A stretch of DNA of 38,023 nt from a virus. The position numbers were made by a program, and so were the translations under genes. Shown piece by piece: positions 4,164 through 38,023 of this stretch (within the stretch, counting starts at the first letter, position 1; each line of letters opens with the position of its first letter). The notes below the pieces were generated by a model. It saw only the letters and a program-made list of their open reading frames with translations. It was not told the origin of the DNA and ran no database searches. The stretch lies in the IMG/VR virus record IMGVR_UViG_3300035670_000621, positions 1-38,023 of that record; one strand, 5' to 3'.

Positions 4164-4489
4164 GCAAGTACCAAGACTGGCTGGAGCAACCGTATCAGGA
4201 GCGCGGCGAGGAGATCGACGGCGAGATCCAAGTTAAGCAGTTCGGCTTTGTGATCGACTGCACGGTGCAGGCATCTCAGGTTATCGAGTCCACTGTGCTC
4301 GGATTCGATGACGAGGACGAAGCACGCGAAGCACTGCGCGAAGTTGTCGCCGGCGACGGCAAGCGATTCGCTGGTGTGAATGTTGACACGCTCGACGAGG
4401 AGCAGTGCGCCGAGCTCATGCAGAGAGTCATCGTTGTGTGGATCGACGAGGATGCCGTCATCGACGAGCTACGGGATCAGTTGCCATGA
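4160..4489 (+). CDS. hypothetical acidic protein, 109 aa
   Basis: The start is the ATG in the ATGA overlap with the 35-aa membrane peptide; the frame is open further upstream only because it runs through the repeat gene. The protein begins MSKYQDWLEQPYQERGEEID and is rich in Glu/Asp, with a pattern like EDEAREALREVV and a C-terminal helix DEDAVIDELRDQL. There is no recognised domain, membrane segment or metal site. The stop overlaps the methyltransferase start (ATGA, 4486-4489), so it is coupled to that gene. Confidence 0.65.
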   Translation: MSKYQDWLEQPYQERGEEIDGEIQVKQFGFVIDCTVQASQVIESTVLGFDDEDEAREALREVVAGDGKRFAGVNVDTLDEEQCAELMQRVIVVWIDEDAVIDELRDQLP

Positions 4490-6033
4490 GGTACTTGTCC
4501 ATCTGCTCGGGCATCGAGGCCGCAACGGTCGCATGGCATCACATGGGCTGGCAACCTGTAGGGTTCGCCGAGATCGAGAAGTTCCCGTCACAGGTATTGG
4601 CACACCACTACCCCGGCACACCGAACTTTGGAGACTTGACGAAGCATGAAGAGTGGAACATTGAATCTGGAGCAGTTGACCTTCTGGTCGGAGGAACTCC
4701 CTGCCAAGCATTCAGCGTTGCAGGACTCCGGCGAGGAATGGATGACGAGCGTGGTCAACTCACCCTTGAGTTTGTCCGACTGGCTGCACGCTTACGCCCT
4801 CGCTGGATCGTCTGGGAAAATGTCCCCGGTGTTTTGTCCAGCGCGGGAGGACGAGACTTTGGTTCCTTCCTCGGGGCGTTGGGCCAACTCGGGTATGGGT
4901 ATGCCTACAGAGTGCTGGACGCTCAGTTCTTCGGAGTCGCCCAACGCCGTAGAAGAGTGTTCTTTGTTGGCTACCTTGGAGACTGGCGTCCTGCCGCGGC
5001 GGTTCTTTTTGAGCGCGAAAGCCTGCGCCGGAATCCTGCGCCGCGCAGACAAGCGTGGGAAGGCTCTGCCGCCGAGTCTGGAAAGCGCGCTGCGATCAGT
5101 AGTGGAAGCGGAGCCGATGTAGTTGGCGCGATTGATTGCAGGATCAATGCCCAACGGGCGCAGAATGCACAGGCAGGTCATCTAGTCGCCGATGTAGTTG
5201 GCGCGATTGATTGCAACATCAACGCCCACACAGGACAGAACGCAGGAGCCGGCCACTTGATCACGGCAAAGTGCATCACGCGAGGCGAGGGCTACAGGTA
5301 CGACTCGGAAACTTGCAACTTGTTGCCTGTTTCCGTCAATCCAAGTGGACGACAAGACCCCGTGCGTGATCCATCACCAGCGATTACTAGAAGCTATGCA
5401 AAGCAAGTAGACAACAGCTTCAGTGAGCCGTCGAATGTTGTCGTGACTAGTGTGATGTCATCTGCAACGGCGTACCCAATCAATGGGATGTGTATCAACA
5501 AGGAACTGCGCGACAAGCAAATGACGGGAACTGGCGAGTCCAACGATCCAATGTACACGCTCCGATCCGCTGGGGCGCAGCACGCGGTGGCGTTCCATGA
5601 AAACCAAAGGGCAGAGGTAACTCTCAGCGACACGGCTGGCAGCTTAAAAGTAGGCGGCGGCAAGCCGGGCCAAGGGTACCCGGCAGTGATGCAGCCGATT
5701 GCATTCAGCGCAAAAGATCATGGTGCTGATGCTGCGTCCGACATCGCTCCGACTCTGCGAGCGATGGGTCACGCTGGCAGTCACGCAAACGGGGGAGGGC
5801 AGATGGCGGTGGCTACGACCATGCAAGTCCGTCGTCTCACGCCCGTGGAGTGCGAGCGTCTGCAAGGTTTCCCAGACGGCTACACCGACATCCGTCCTCG
5901 CGGTAAGGACACGCCTGATGGGCCGCGCTACAAGGCACTCGGCAACAGCATGGCCGTGCCCGTCATGCGCTGGATTGGCGAGCGCATCGCCGAAGTCGAA
6001 AAGCTACAATCGACTGAGCGGAAGTCACAGTGA
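4486..6033 (+). CDS. dcm: DNA (cytosine-5) methyltransferase, Dcm type, 515 aa
   Basis: It transfers a methyl group from S-adenosylmethionine to C5 of cytosine in a specific DNA site. The ordered motifs are visible: SAM-binding SICSGIEAATVAW (motif I, residues 5-17), the catalytic Pro-Cys in GGTPCQAFSVAG (motif IV, Cys73), WENVPGVLSS (motif VI, 110-119), AQRRRRVFFVG (motif VIII, 152-162), then RLTPVECERLQGFP (IX) and YKALGNSMAVPV (X) near the end. The ~265-residue stretch between VIII and IX is the target-recognition region and is unusually repetitive, with a 25-codon tandem duplication. No restriction enzyme gene is adjacent, so protection of phage DNA from host restriction is the likely role. 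The start at 4486 overlaps the previous stop; the open frame from 4405 is not needed. Confidence 0.93.
   Translation: MRYLSICSGIEAATVAWHHMGWQPVGFAEIEKFPSQVLAHHYPGTPNFGDLTKHEEWNIESGAVDLLVGGTPCQAFSVAGLRRGMDDERGQLTLEFVRLAARLRPRWIVWENVPGVLSSAGGRDFGSFLGALGQLGYGYAYRVLDAQFFGVAQRRRRVFFVGYLGDWRPAAAVLFERESLRRNPAPRRQAWEGSAAESGKRAAISSGSGADVVGAIDCRINAQRAQNAQAGHLVADVVGAIDCNINAHTGQNAGAGHLITAKCITRGEGYRYDSETCNLLPVSVNPSGRQDPVRDPSPAITRSYAKQVDNSFSEPSNVVVTSVMSSATAYPINGMCINKELRDKQMTGTGESNDPMYTLRSAGAQHAVAFHENQRAEVTLSDTAGSLKVGGGKPGQGYPAVMQPIAFSAKDHGADAASDIAPTLRAMGHAGSHANGGGQMAVATTMQVRRLTPVECERLQGFPDGYTDIRPRGKDTPDGPRYKALGNSMAVPVMRWIGERIAEVEKLQSTERKSQ
4646..5122 (+). CDS. conserved phage ORF overlapping dcm in the +1 frame, 158 aa
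   Basis: This frame lies entirely inside the methyltransferase gene, one base ahead. It begins MKSGTLNLEQLTFWSEELPA and ends with ETGVLPRRFFLSAKACAGIL, then RRADKRGKALPPSLE. I recognise this from memory as a phage hypothetical family with the same blocks: GKTSP...PSSG-W-NSGMG-PTE, then SLSDILETGDVPPRFYLSAKACxGILRRAEKRGK-LPP. The family C-terminus is formed by the +1 reading of the Dcm motif VIII region. A weak GGAG lies 12 bases before the ATG. It could be a genuine overprinted gene or a frame preserved only because Dcm is conserved; the sequence alone cannot decide. Function unknown. Confidence 0.5.
   Translation: MKSGTLNLEQLTFWSEELPAKHSALQDSGEEWMTSVVNSPLSLSDWLHAYALAGSSGKMSPVFCPAREDETLVPSSGRWANSGMGMPTECWTLSSSESPNAVEECSLLATLETGVLPRRFFLSAKACAGILRRADKRGKALPPSLESALRSVVEAEPM
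5113..5140 (+). repeat. 28-bp direct repeat in dcm, copy 1
   Basis: Perfect 28-base repeat of 5188-5215 (75-base period, 25 codons). It encodes ADVVGAIDC and belongs to a diverged 25-residue tandem duplication in the target-recognition region. Confidence 0.9.
5188..5215 (+). repeat. 28-bp direct repeat in dcm, copy 2
   Basis: Second copy of the 28-base perfect repeat. The bases after it have diverged (RINAQRAQNAQAGHL in copy 1, NINAHTGQNAGAGHL in copy 2). Confidence 0.9.
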
Positions 6034-8273: not shown

Positions 8274-8350
8274 GGGCGCGTAGCTCAGTCGGTCAGAGTC
8301 AGCGGCTTATACCCGCTCGGTCGTGGGTTCAAGTCCCACCGCGCCTACCA
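8274..8350 (+). tRNA. tRNA-Ile (anticodon UAU), CCA encoded
   Basis: A full cloverleaf folds by eye: acceptor GGGCGCG with CGCGCCT (last pair G-U), D arm from GCTC, anticodon stem AGCGG/CCGCT with loop CTTATAC (anticodon TAT at 8308-8310), T stem GTGGG/CCCAC with loop TTCAAGT, discriminator A and encoded CCA. It would read AUA isoleucine codons. Most bacteria read AUA with a CAU tRNA modified by lysidine, so a UAU anticodon is uncommon. It lies between two converging gene sets; the stop codon of the opposite gene begins 2 bases after the CCA. Confidence 0.92.
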
Positions 8351-33074: not shown

Positions 33075-35501
33075 TTAGTCCAGAGGTGCCAGCACGCAGC
33101 GGCAGTTGATGGTCTCTTCGGGCGCACCTTGCGGGTCGTTCGGGAAGCGTAGGTTCGGCGCGAACGCCTCGCCGGGCTTCCGAATCTCGCCGTCGAGCGC
33201 GAGATGCGAAGGACGAGTGGTGGCATCGTTCGACGACACCCACTGGATCTTCGTGACTCCCGCGCTCTCGTACTCTTGGAACGCCGCGCTGTTATACGCC
33301 TTGCCAGTCTCGGTGCGCGCGATGGTGAGCGCACGCGATTCCTTAGACCCGAAGACCGAGGCCAAGTCTTCGTCGAGCTCAGGCAGCACCTCGTTGATGC
33401 TGCTGGCGATCTCGCTTGTGGTCGTCGGGGAACTGAGCGTGACCATCATCTTGTCGCGGATCTCGGCGGCTAGCCGCGAGTTCACGCCCTCGACGATCTG
33501 GGCGCGCTGCTCGGCGATCATCCGAACGATGCGCGGGTCGGTCACTTCCAGTTGCACACCGCCGATCAGCTCGGCGGTATCGGCCAAGCCGTCGCGCCAA
33601 GTCGCCGTGATGTTCGCCGAGATGAGCTCGTCAAGCTGACGCTCCCACTCCTCCTTGTTCAGCAGGAGGTACAGCTCGACATCGCGCTCTGTCCACGCCT
33701 TCGTGGTGATCGACTTCTGAGCCGTCGGGCCAGCCTCGGCAAACTCACGCAGCTTGGCCTTTTGCGCGCGCTCGTAACGGCGGAACCAAGTCAGCACATC
33801 CGCGGCCAGCCGACGCTCGGCTGCATCCAGCGTCTTCTTGTAGATCGACTCAGCGAACGCGATGCGCTCTTCGCGGGTATCGAATCGCTTGGACGCGCGG
33901 CTCTTCACGGCCTCGGCCACAGGCTGCATCGTCGCTGACGCACCGCCGAGGATCTGGTTGGCCTGAGTGATCGAGATACTCGGGAACGCCGCGTTGATCA
34001 GGGCCGCACCGCTGGACTGCGACAGCGAGCCCTGAGCTACTTGGCTGATGATCAGGAGCAACGACTCGACCTGTGCACCGTTCAGGCCAGCCGATGCAGC
34101 AGTAGCCGCCGTAGCGGGTTCCTCGGCCGGCGCGGTCGGTGCCGCCGGCACCACGGTCTGAGGCTGGACGCTCGTGTCCTCGCCTGTGTTCGTGTCGTTG
34201 ACCGCGAACACTTGGTTGCTCATCGGCGTGAACACCGTGTTGGCCGACTCGACGGTCTCGACTTCGAGGCCCAGCATCTTGGCCGAGTCATTGAAGCTCA
34301 AGCCCACGCCATAGGCCGCGAGCTCCGCAGCCAGCTTGAACTTGGCCGAGTGGTCTTCTTGCAGCGCGGTGATACCAGAGAAGTCGAAGCTGATGTAACA
34401 GCCGGCGAGCCGAGGGTCTTCGAGACGCGACAACAGATGGCTGTTGATCTTCTCGGCCACGCTGTCGAGGTAGCCCTTCACGCCTTGCCAGAACTGGCGG
34501 TAGGCTTCGGTCACATTGTTGTAGGTCGCCGTGTCGTAGTTCCCGATGACCGGCGGCGGCACCTGAAGGATCGAGCACACCGTGTCGCGCACCCAGTTGA
34601 GGGTCTCGCGCTGCATCATGTCCTTCGGGGTCGCGGGGTTCGGGACGATGTTCACCTTGCCCGTCACCACCTTGAAGCCGCCGACAACATCGGGATCCTT
34701 GACGGCTTCGTTCACCGATTCTTGGAGGCGGTACTCCTCCTCGTTGGACATCCCGTCCTCGTAGTTGAGGAACGCGCCGGGGCCACCGCCGCGCATCACG
34801 GCTTCCTGATAACGCTCGGCTTGGAAGCCGACCGAGATCACACGCAGCGCGGCTTCAAGAGGCGAGAGCCCGCGCATCGGGTCGCCCGGGTTGTAGTCGT
34901 AGAAGTGGACGGTCGAGGCAACGGGGAAGGTCGGCGGCACCGCGCCGTTCGCAGCGTACTGCACCGCAGTGATGCGGCCCGTGTACTGGTCGCGTGCGTC
35001 CTCGACGATGTCGCCGATCACAGGCACGATGACCGTCGGCAGCGGGATCGGTGCCCGAGCATCCACGCTCGGGGAGATCGGCTTGCCCTCCGAATCCATC
35101 AGGAACCACCAGTCCTCACCGCTTAACTTGCGGTGCGTCATGCCGGCGGCTAGCAGATCAGGCAGACCCATGTCAGGGTTCGGCATCTCGAAGAGCTTGC
35201 GAATCGGGTGCTCTTCGCCGACCTCTTGCGCGTCCTCGTCGGCAGATTCCCAGATGTTCAATGGCACCTGACGCACGGCCTCGGTCAACGCCTGTACGCA
35301 CGCGTACACCACCCACGAATCCGACAATGGATCCTCGACCTCGTCACGCCCGCCGGGCGTGCTACGCGCCAGACCGATCTGACGCAGCAACGAGTCCATC
35401 GACTTGCCGATGCCCGAGGTCTCGACCTTCTCAAAGGTGAGGCCAGTGCCGGGCATACGCTTGAACGGAGACGGTCTACGCTTGCTGCTCACGGGTATCA
35501 T
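33075..35501 (-). CDS. portal protein fused to a MuF-type head protein, 808 aa
   Basis: Residues ~30-435 are an HK97-type portal: WVVYACVQALTEAVRQVPLN, DYNPGDPMRGLSPLEAALRV, RGGGPGAFLNYEDGMSNEEE, LNWVRDTVCSILQVPPPVIG and YNNVTEAYRQFW. A Pro/Ala/Thr-rich linker (~445-472) leads to a long helical part (~475-690). The last ~115 residues are MuF-like: ALTIARTETGKAYNSAAFQE, RPSHLALDG and ETINCRCVLAPLD. The portal forms the DNA channel; MuF proteins (SPP1 gp7, Mu gpF) sit inside the head and are usually separate genes. It starts at ATG 35501, close to a divergent frame at 35511. Confidence 0.88.
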   Translation of the reverse strand: MIPVSSKRRPSPFKRMPGTGLTFEKVETSGIGKSMDSLLRQIGLARSTPGGRDEVEDPLSDSWVVYACVQALTEAVRQVPLNIWESADEDAQEVGEEHPIRKLFEMPNPDMGLPDLLAAGMTHRKLSGEDWWFLMDSEGKPISPSVDARAPIPLPTVIVPVIGDIVEDARDQYTGRITAVQYAANGAVPPTFPVASTVHFYDYNPGDPMRGLSPLEAALRVISVGFQAERYQEAVMRGGGPGAFLNYEDGMSNEEEYRLQESVNEAVKDPDVVGGFKVVTGKVNIVPNPATPKDMMQRETLNWVRDTVCSILQVPPPVIGNYDTATYNNVTEAYRQFWQGVKGYLDSVAEKINSHLLSRLEDPRLAGCYISFDFSGITALQEDHSAKFKLAAELAAYGVGLSFNDSAKMLGLEVETVESANTVFTPMSNQVFAVNDTNTGEDTSVQPQTVVPAAPTAPAEEPATAATAASAGLNGAQVESLLLIISQVAQGSLSQSSGAALINAAFPSISITQANQILGGASATMQPVAEAVKSRASKRFDTREERIAFAESIYKKTLDAAERRLAADVLTWFRRYERAQKAKLREFAEAGPTAQKSITTKAWTERDVELYLLLNKEEWERQLDELISANITATWRDGLADTAELIGGVQLEVTDPRIVRMIAEQRAQIVEGVNSRLAAEIRDKMMVTLSSPTTTSEIASSINEVLPELDEDLASVFGSKESRALTIARTETGKAYNSAAFQEYESAGVTKIQWVSSNDATTRPSHLALDGEIRKPGEAFAPNLRFPNDPQGAPEETINCRCVLAPLD

Positions 35502-35510
35502 CCTCCCACA

Positions 35511-35753
35511 GTGTCCAAGCCTCGTCGTGGTCGTATGCTTGAGAGTTCATCAGCCAAAGCTGGGGACGCTCTCGTCGTCGTCACGGCAAGACTTCACAAG
35601 TCTACCTACAGCGCGTTGTTCGCCATCGCCACGAATCACCGCATCAAGCCAAGCGTCCTTATTCGTCGTGCGCTGGAGGAGGTAGTCCGATCCTCTTTCG
35701 GTACAACTCGGCCTCCCGCTCACCGAGCCGAGTCAAAGTCGTCGAGAGAATGA
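35511..35753 (+). CDS. ribbon-helix-helix (CopG/Arc-like) protein on the opposite strand, 80 aa
   Basis: The frame reads GTG at 35511 (VSKPRRGRMLESSSAKAGDA at the start). The part LVVVTARLHKSTYSALFAIA then TNHRIKPSVLIRRALEEVV has the order of a ribbon-helix-helix DNA-binding domain: a beta-strand with basic residues, a helix, a turn with a KPS cap and a second helix. The N- and C-termini are basic. It runs opposite to all surrounding head genes, starts 9 bases from the portal start and its end overlaps the end of the 35659-35907 gene. No ribosome-binding site is clear; GTG 35511 or ATG 35535 are both possible. It could regulate late transcription. Confidence 0.5.
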   Translation: MSKPRRGRMLESSSAKAGDALVVVTARLHKSTYSALFAIATNHRIKPSVLIRRALEEVVRSSFGTTRPPAHRAESKSSRE

Positions 35754-35907
35754 TGCCGCCCTCTGGGTCACCACACACGCCGAAGATGATCCAGCCGCGC
35801 TCGACGAGCGTGAACAACTGGTTCGGGCTAAGTTGATCCGCGTCGCCAGCATCGACGAGAAGCAGATGCGGTAGCAGGAAGTGATCGGGTGTCGTCGGGT
35901 TTCTCAT
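35659..35907 (-). CDS. hypothetical small protein between terminase and portal, 82 aa
   Basis: Starts MRNPTTPDHFLLPHLLLVDA and continues LFTLVERGWIIFGVCGDPEG, then LTRLGEREAELYRKRIG. The end has the LTxLGExEAxxYR style of a winged-helix C-terminal strand/helix, but it is too short to be sure. Its last 95 bases overlap the opposite-strand ribbon-helix-helix frame. It lies between terminase and portal, where small head completion proteins often sit. The 157 bases between it and the portal (35502-35658) hold no leftward gene. Confidence 0.5.
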   Translation of the reverse strand: MRNPTTPDHFLLPHLLLVDAGDADQLSPNQLFTLVERGWIIFGVCGDPEGGIILSTTLTRLGEREAELYRKRIGLPPPAHDE

Positions 35908-35991: not shown

Positions 35992-37644
35992 TCAGCGACC
36001 GCGACGAAGCACACTCAGGCCAGACTTCGGCACGACCGCGAAGCCCGGCTTGTTCGACGCGCCACGCGAGAGTCCGATGATCGCTGAGTCCCACTGGTCA
36101 GGGCTTCGACCGTACCGCTCGCGCAGGCCGTCCTTGCCGTCGTCTCGATGCAACGCGATGCGCGTGCCCTTCGCGCTGTCCTCGAACTCATAGCGCGCCC
36201 ACTGCGACTGCCGCCACAACTCGTTGTACTTCTCGGGGATCTTGATCTTGCGCTCTTCGAGGAGACGCTTGGCGACCCAGTGTAGTTCGCTCTTGCGGTC
36301 GCTGAAGATCATCTGGCCGGTAATCTCCTTCCAGTCGTACTTCGCAGCAGAGCCGAAGTCCACGCCGTCCACATAGAAGCCGAGCTGCTTCAAGCGATCC
36401 AGCACGCCAGCACCCATGCCGACCGAGTCGATGTGGATGTTGCGCGCGGGGATCATCTCGCCCTTGTAGCCCCACGACTTAGCGAGCTCGACGATCTTGT
36501 TCGCCGTCGCCATCAAGTCAGGCAACCGCCACGCGACCTGTTCTTTCAGGACACCATTTGCCCAGAGCGTTGCCACCGATTCGTCGCTGCCCTGCCGCGC
36601 AACATCTACGCCGAGGTGCAACTGGCTCGCGCTCGTCACTTCGCCGAGCTCTGCATCGAGGGCCGCGACCAGCATCCCCTTGGTGACGAAGCGACGCTCA
36701 AGACTTTGCTCGGGGAACTTGCCCAACACATAGGCTGACCAGAGCGGTGAGTCCGCGCCCCACTCCATGCGCATCTGATCCACCCACTCCTTGTCCGCAA
36801 GCCAGTCGGGCGCGATGTGGAAGGAGTCGTAGGGCACAGGGTCTGCGCCATCATCCTCACACGCCGAGATCCTGATGCGATGCCAGCGCGTGCCGTTCCT
36901 GAACGAGCGCGCGAAGAAGTGATCCGAGTCTGCGTCGATCGTCGGGTTCGCCGTCAGCAGCACATGGACATTCGGGCCAGAGAGCGAGCCCTCGATGGCA
37001 CGATACACCGCGTCGTCCACGCCGGCGGCTTCGTCGATCACGACCACTAGACGCTTGTCACCAAGCTGCGCCTCGCGCTTGAGCCGCTCGACATCCACCT
37101 CGTCGGCGTCGTTCTCTTCGATGTCCACATCGTCAGGCAACCGCACGCCAGCGTGCCAACCTTGGAAGCGGTCGGGCGAGTTGGTTGCGATACCGAGCGC
37201 GTAGTGCTCGGGCGCGATCGACAATCGGATCGTGCCGAGCTCGCCGGGCAACGCAGGCCAGCGCGTCTTCGCCTTTGACCACATCGAGCCGATGCGCTGC
37301 CACAACACATCGCGCACCTGTCGGCCCGTCGGCGCGGTCGTCAGCACCACGCACTTGCTCGTGTAGATGAATGAGAGCACGGCCAGTGCCCCAGTCTCAG
37401 TCTTGCCGGCCTTACGACCAGAGCGCACCGTCACGAACCGCTTGGTAGATAACTGCTGCATGATCTCGCGCTGCGCTGCCCAGAGCCGCGCGCCAAAGAC
37501 CTTCTTGCAGAGCTTCGACTCCTGACCGCGGAACTCCTCGAACATGGCTTCGCCTTCTCGAAGGTTGTGCAGCTTGCCAACTTCGAGGAGCGATTCGAGG
37601 AGCAGCAGGCGCGTCTCCTCGTCATGTACGAGCGGCTCCCTCAA
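35992..37644 (-). CDS. terL: terminase large subunit, 550 aa
   Basis: The ATPase half has Walker A SGRKAGKTE (75-83), Walker B LVVVIDEA (199-206) and the coupling TAN (231-233). The nuclease half has GVDVARQGSDES (Asp347), HIDSVGMGAG (Asp406) and DQWDSAIIG (Asp516/Asp519), the metal-binding aspartates of the RNase H-like domain. It pumps DNA into the head and cuts it. An acidic insertion (PDDVDIEENDADEVDVERLK, about 170-189) lies between the Walker motifs. The start is taken as TTG at 37644, overlapping the upstream TGA, with GGAG 5 bases before it; no in-frame ATG lies close by. No small terminase gene was seen in the window. Confidence 0.92.
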   Translation of the reverse strand: MREPLVHDEETRLLLLESLLEVGKLHNLREGEAMFEEFRGQESKLCKKVFGARLWAAQREIMQQLSTKRFVTVRSGRKAGKTETGALAVLSFIYTSKCVVLTTAPTGRQVRDVLWQRIGSMWSKAKTRWPALPGELGTIRLSIAPEHYALGIATNSPDRFQGWHAGVRLPDDVDIEENDADEVDVERLKREAQLGDKRLVVVIDEAAGVDDAVYRAIEGSLSGPNVHVLLTANPTIDADSDHFFARSFRNGTRWHRIRISACEDDGADPVPYDSFHIAPDWLADKEWVDQMRMEWGADSPLWSAYVLGKFPEQSLERRFVTKGMLVAALDAELGEVTSASQLHLGVDVARQGSDESVATLWANGVLKEQVAWRLPDLMATANKIVELAKSWGYKGEMIPARNIHIDSVGMGAGVLDRLKQLGFYVDGVDFGSAAKYDWKEITGQMIFSDRKSELHWVAKRLLEERKIKIPEKYNELWRQSQWARYEFEDSAKGTRIALHRDDGKDGLRERYGRSPDQWDSAIIGLSRGASNKPGFAVVPKSGLSVLRRGR

Positions 37645-38023
37645 TCAATCTCCACTTGGTAGTTCGGACGCGGGCCACCGTACTGACCGCCGAGTCGATA
37701 GTTCAGGCTCGGCGACTCGATCTGCGCGCCGACCACCTTGCCCATGTACACGCCCGAGAGCGAGATCATCGGACGCGTCGCGCGACGCGACACCGCCTTG
37801 AAGTTCACGATCGACACCGAGTCGAACGAGTAGATCTCACGCACTGGATAGGTGCCGTTGCTCGTGTCAGTCCAGCACACGAGCGCGCCGTTCTTTGTGT
37901 TGCCGCTCTCGCAGTTCACGACCTCCAGCTTGCCCGTGCAGCCGACGAAGGTGTAGTCGCTCCCACCACCGCCGGCGTCGTCGATGTCAAAGCACGAGCA
38001 CTCGCGCACGAGGATGTTGCCGA
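37641..38023 (-). CDS. beta-helix-like protein, C-terminal part (5' end outside window)
   Basis: The frame is open to the window edge (GNILVRECSCFDIDDAGGGG at the start), so only the C-terminal ~127 residues are seen. The pattern of short strands with stacked Cys/Asn (VGCTGKLEVVNCESGNTKNG, then SFDSVSIVNFKAV) resembles a right-handed beta-helix, as in tail spikes and pectate-lyase-like proteins. The end LGGQYGGPRPNYQVEID overlaps the terminase start. A spike or fibre gene directly before terminase is not the usual order in lambda-like phages. Enzyme function cannot be judged from this fragment. Confidence 0.5.
   Translation of the reverse strand, partial: GNILVRECSCFDIDDAGGGGSDYTFVGCTGKLEVVNCESGNTKNGALVCWTDTSNGTYPVREIYSFDSVSIVNFKAVSRRATRPMISLSGVYMGKVVGAQIESPSLNYRLGGQYGGPRPNYQVEID

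Follow-up and report, generated by a model that had tools for sequence, protein, structure and literature searches.

A conserved opposite-strand gene with the features of a ribbon-helix-helix protein at the terminase-portal junction of a phage clade

Introduction

The genes of a head operon are generally taken to follow one another on one strand without interruption, and small frames on the opposite strand are easily dismissed. The virus record IMGVR_UViG_3300035670_000621 of IMG/VR, considered here in its entirety (38,023 bases, 61% G+C; hereafter the window), raises the question of whether such a frame can be a genuine gene and, if so, what kind of product it supplies. The minus strand carries, in the order of reading, the terminase large subunit (35992-37644; PHROG 2, E 1.8e-27), a small conserved protein designated ORF82 (35659-35907), and the portal with a C-terminal Mu F-like domain (33075-35492; PF04860, E 1.4e-42; PF04233, E 5.8e-17), followed by the genes for head maturation, the major head protein and the tail. 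Between portal and terminase, on the plus strand, an earlier note made from the sequence alone had marked a frame resembling ribbon-helix-helix (RHH) proteins and suggested that a DNA-binding regulator encoded there could control late transcription or act through antisense RNA. Outside this arrangement, a frame upstream of the terminase (37641-38021) is open at the window edge and has no family match; judged by eye, it resembles part of a beta-helix or tail-spike protein more than a small terminase. At positions 8274-8350 there is a tRNA-Ile gene (anticodon TAT).

Results

The opposite-strand frame is a conserved protein-coding gene

The frame at 35511-35753 is present exactly as described (80 aa from a GTG start), and its overlap of 95 bases with the minus-strand frame at 35659-35907 was borne out. 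Its length proves nothing, because long antisense frames are common in a window with 61% G+C, and this abundance is the point in favour of a frame left open by chance in G+C-rich DNA. Against such an origin stands purifying selection specific to this frame: in the 40-codon core compared over six clades, variable sites at the first, second and third codon positions number 14, 7 and 32 (p about 8e-5), and in the core portion outside the ORF82 overlap pN/pS amounts to 0.22, while of the six possible frames the RHH frame is the only one free of stops in all six clades. Control antisense frames over the portal are interrupted by stops in some relatives. Conservation in related phages, which the earlier note had proposed as a check, extends to every relative holding the locus, that is, 28 of 28 other IMG/VR contigs with an opposite-strand frame at the terminase-portal junction, many of them recovered with terminase or portal as query as well. 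The clade contigs lacking the frame (L023, L037/L095, L057 and L059) show one side of the junction only. Even in the diverged contigs L060 and L061, with portal 45% and terminase 51% identical, there is an opposite-strand homologue, 44% identical over 41 residues. The frame is a real, conserved protein-coding gene, and its appearance by chance is scarcely credible.

Both start codons at the junction are reassigned

In place of the GTG at 35511 the L014 clade has ATC and the L031 clade TTG, and the codons at 35511-35534 are poorly conserved, whereas the ATG at 35535, located inside the invariant CGTATGCT, is kept in 26 of 26 close relatives. Judged by this pattern, the gene starts at ATG 35535 and not at GTG 35511, so that its product has 72 aa (35535-35753, plus strand) and the upstream extension at 35511-35534 is probably untranslated. 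No Shine-Dalgarno sequence was found for the RHH gene, and of the genes checked here roughly one in three likewise has none. On the opposite side, the portal GTG at 35492 persists in all clades and has GGGAGG (minus strand, 35502-35507) at a suitable distance, while the L014 clade has lost the ATG at 35501; the portal thus probably starts at GTG 35492 rather than at ATG 35501. The start-to-start distance of 9 bases given earlier holds for the pair GTG 35511 and ATG 35501; with both starts corrected, the divergent start codons of the RHH and portal genes are 42 bp apart, and the gap between them (35493-35534) accommodates the portal Shine-Dalgarno sequence.

The partner in the 95-bp overlap, ORF82, converges on the RHH gene. 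Diverged relatives have it at 52-58% identity, with the shared motif LTPNQLF...RGW; it matched no family in profile searches, and in L060 and L061 it was not detected. As its sequence conservation indicates, ORF82 is itself a real gene, and the overlap lies between two conserved genes that converge.

Affiliation of the product with ribbon-helix-helix proteins

The core of the protein, LVVVTARLHKSTYSALFAIATNHRIKPSVLIRRALEEVVR, follows the strand-helix-helix pattern of RHH proteins, and six of its residues (T17, R19, S40, L42, I43 and R44) are invariant, T17 and R19 in all members. Its best family match is PHROG 4113, a family of unknown function (E 3.8e-4; among the members E ranges from 3.8e-4 to 1.3e-2); the RHH core was also matched, weakly, by the Arc-like PHROG 582, the CopG-like PHROG 7325 and the repressor PHROG 876 (E-values 0.006 to 0.4), and RHH_1 and RHH_3 match the same core below the cut-off. 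Small and single-domain like CopG-type repressors, the protein aligns without gaps over 34 columns with CopG (P 0.0043 vs 0.21 for reversed CopG), T17 and R19 corresponding to polar strand residues of CopG. All these profile and CopG alignments, each weak alone, cover one core in one register. The profile search suggested by the earlier note has thus given RHH-type matches, but none reaching a curated family cut-off, and for this reason the RHH subfamily is left unassigned.

Structural comparison is of the same tenor. The fold search produced no significant match (all E above 0.4), and its list is rich in RHH proteins (VapB, PutA, CopG, AmrZ and MatP). The monomer model, with a mean pLDDT of 67, contains two confident helices and a helix where the strand is expected. 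A PDB sequence search with the protein found nothing, and annotated phages gave one weak match, in an Erwinia phage (E 0.5). The L060 homologue is longer, 103 aa, with the RHH domain in its C-terminal half, and its model adopts strand-helix-helix in the second half at low overall confidence, with no useful fold match. The N-terminal half bears a similar PSQLVRALIEFEAE segment (27% identity), so a tandem RHH arrangement may tentatively be considered for this homologue, although this half is not matched by the profile that matches the C-terminal half. Family profiles, CopG comparison and fold search, each weakly, all point to an RHH domain. Conservation, the common register of the profile matches and the fold comparison speak for the earlier assignment to an RHH-type DNA-binding protein on the opposite strand; the function is a matter of inference.

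Search for control elements

Scanning for promoters and terminators by simple consensus matched nothing, including promoters in the 42-bp gap and a plus-strand terminator downstream of the RHH gene before the terminase. The search for a host through terminase in genomes gave matches of only 27-33% identity, in Chloroflexota MAGs, which are too distant to point to a particular host. Synonymous sites at the portal 5′ end display no excess constraint. A 7-bp inverted repeat, GCATACG/CGTATGC (35453-35459 and 35532-35538), retains its 72-nt spacing in three clades; it was rejected as an operator because the heptamer occurs in the window at chance frequency, the repeat could not be located in the L014 clade, and the surrounding codons have no unusual synonymous constraint. 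Control of late transcription, as supposed in the earlier note, is possible, but neither an operator, promoter or terminator nor excess synonymous constraint at the portal 5′ end came to light.

Origin of the gene and other occupants of the junction

No such RHH gene was found in more distant phages (terminase 31-35% identical), and the terminase and portal genes of one contig, L109, share four bases. The G+C content of the RHH gene, a short one, is 56.5% vs 63% in portal and terminase. According to the definition of phage morons (PMC4378225), these are the traits of a single gene inserted between genes that adjoin in other phages and differing from them in base composition. The RHH gene looks like a moron-type insertion since fixed in the clade, and it departs from morons in this clade-wide fixation and in having no promoter or terminator recognised by the consensus scan.

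Other genes occur around this junction. In L010 a DNA methyltransferase-like gene (about 4520-5880; motifs DPPYGLSFMGKKWD and GSGSTGKAA by eye) lies between terminase and ORF82, and inserts of similar size are present in L005, L008, L015, L016 and L018; the window has no methyltransferase there, but has one at 4405-6033. Between terminase and portal of L104, a zinc-ribbon-like frame (2116-2313; NrdR-like by eye) is found on the sense strand, which suggests that small DNA-binding genes may have settled at this junction more than once.

Discussion

By analogy with characterised families, and with a probability that we put at about 0.6, the gene would encode a 72-aa single-domain RHH protein acting as a dimeric DNA-binding repressor of its own promoter, and perhaps of others. 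RHH proteins work as dimers and insert a two-stranded sheet into the major groove of DNA. If the family mode is followed, two chains would pair their strands, the resulting sheet would enter the major groove, T17 and R19 pointing towards the DNA, and the dimer would repress transcription by binding to a short operator. This operator would most likely be situated at the gene's own promoter, which would have to lie upstream of 35535, in the region of the 42-bp gap and the 5′ end of the portal gene, so that the protein would regulate itself; leftward transcription of the head genes, or promoters at other places, could be modulated as well. Since no operator, promoter or terminator was identified, the role as repressor is one that we infer. 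In its genetic setting the proposed regulator would differ from its likely kin: the CopG gene shares an operon with its target gene and the known phage RHH repressors belong to the immunity region, whereas the RHH gene stands alone on its strand, inside the head operon and opposite to it.

The position and the apparent history of the gene also fit moron-type cargo acting on host promoters or superinfecting phages with no role in the head operon. Absence from more distant phages, the four-base overlap of terminase and portal in L109, the lowered G+C content and the failure to find a link to a late operator are all consistent with such a role, but its fixation in the whole clade, with site and orientation unchanged, is unlike variable cargo, and an own promoter or terminator was not recognised; we regard it as an unlikely reading, though one to be kept in mind. 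Many RHH proteins are antitoxins, and the L060 homologue has weak RelB and CopG-antitoxin matches, yet the gene has no conserved same-strand neighbour that could serve as the adjacent toxin of a type II pair, and the sole small conserved neighbour, ORF82, is convergent and escapes detection in L060 and L061, making an antitoxin function very improbable. Equally improbable appears a packaging DNA-recognition factor, similar to a small terminase and encoded next to the large subunit: the gene is kept beside terminase across the clade and no small terminase was recognised among the window proteins scanned, but a divergent one could be missed because many window proteins are of unknown nature, the RHH gene is not on the terminase strand, and we know of no RHH small terminase.

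The opposite-strand location with its 95-bp overlap, together with the want of a plus-strand terminator before terminase, might suit an antisense transcript directed against ORF82 and terminase mRNA, the protein being incidental. Selection, however, acts on amino acids, third positions varying freely while the protein is kept, and RNA as the principal agent is hardly to be expected; the antisense-RNA action conjectured in the earlier note is possible, and would be secondary because it is the protein sequence that selection keeps. Returning to the RHH repressor, leftward late transcription would cross its gene in the antisense direction and could thereby shut the gene down late in infection. 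A reciprocal arrangement, in which the protein represses leftward terminase-portal transcription early and its gene is later silenced through antisense interference by that same transcription, is doubtful; if true, the terminase-portal junction would contain a mutually exclusive timing device. Among the matches listed, our literature search did not find an antisense RHH gene at such a junction. Being conserved across a clade of uncultured phages, the RHH gene is a concrete candidate regulator to test.
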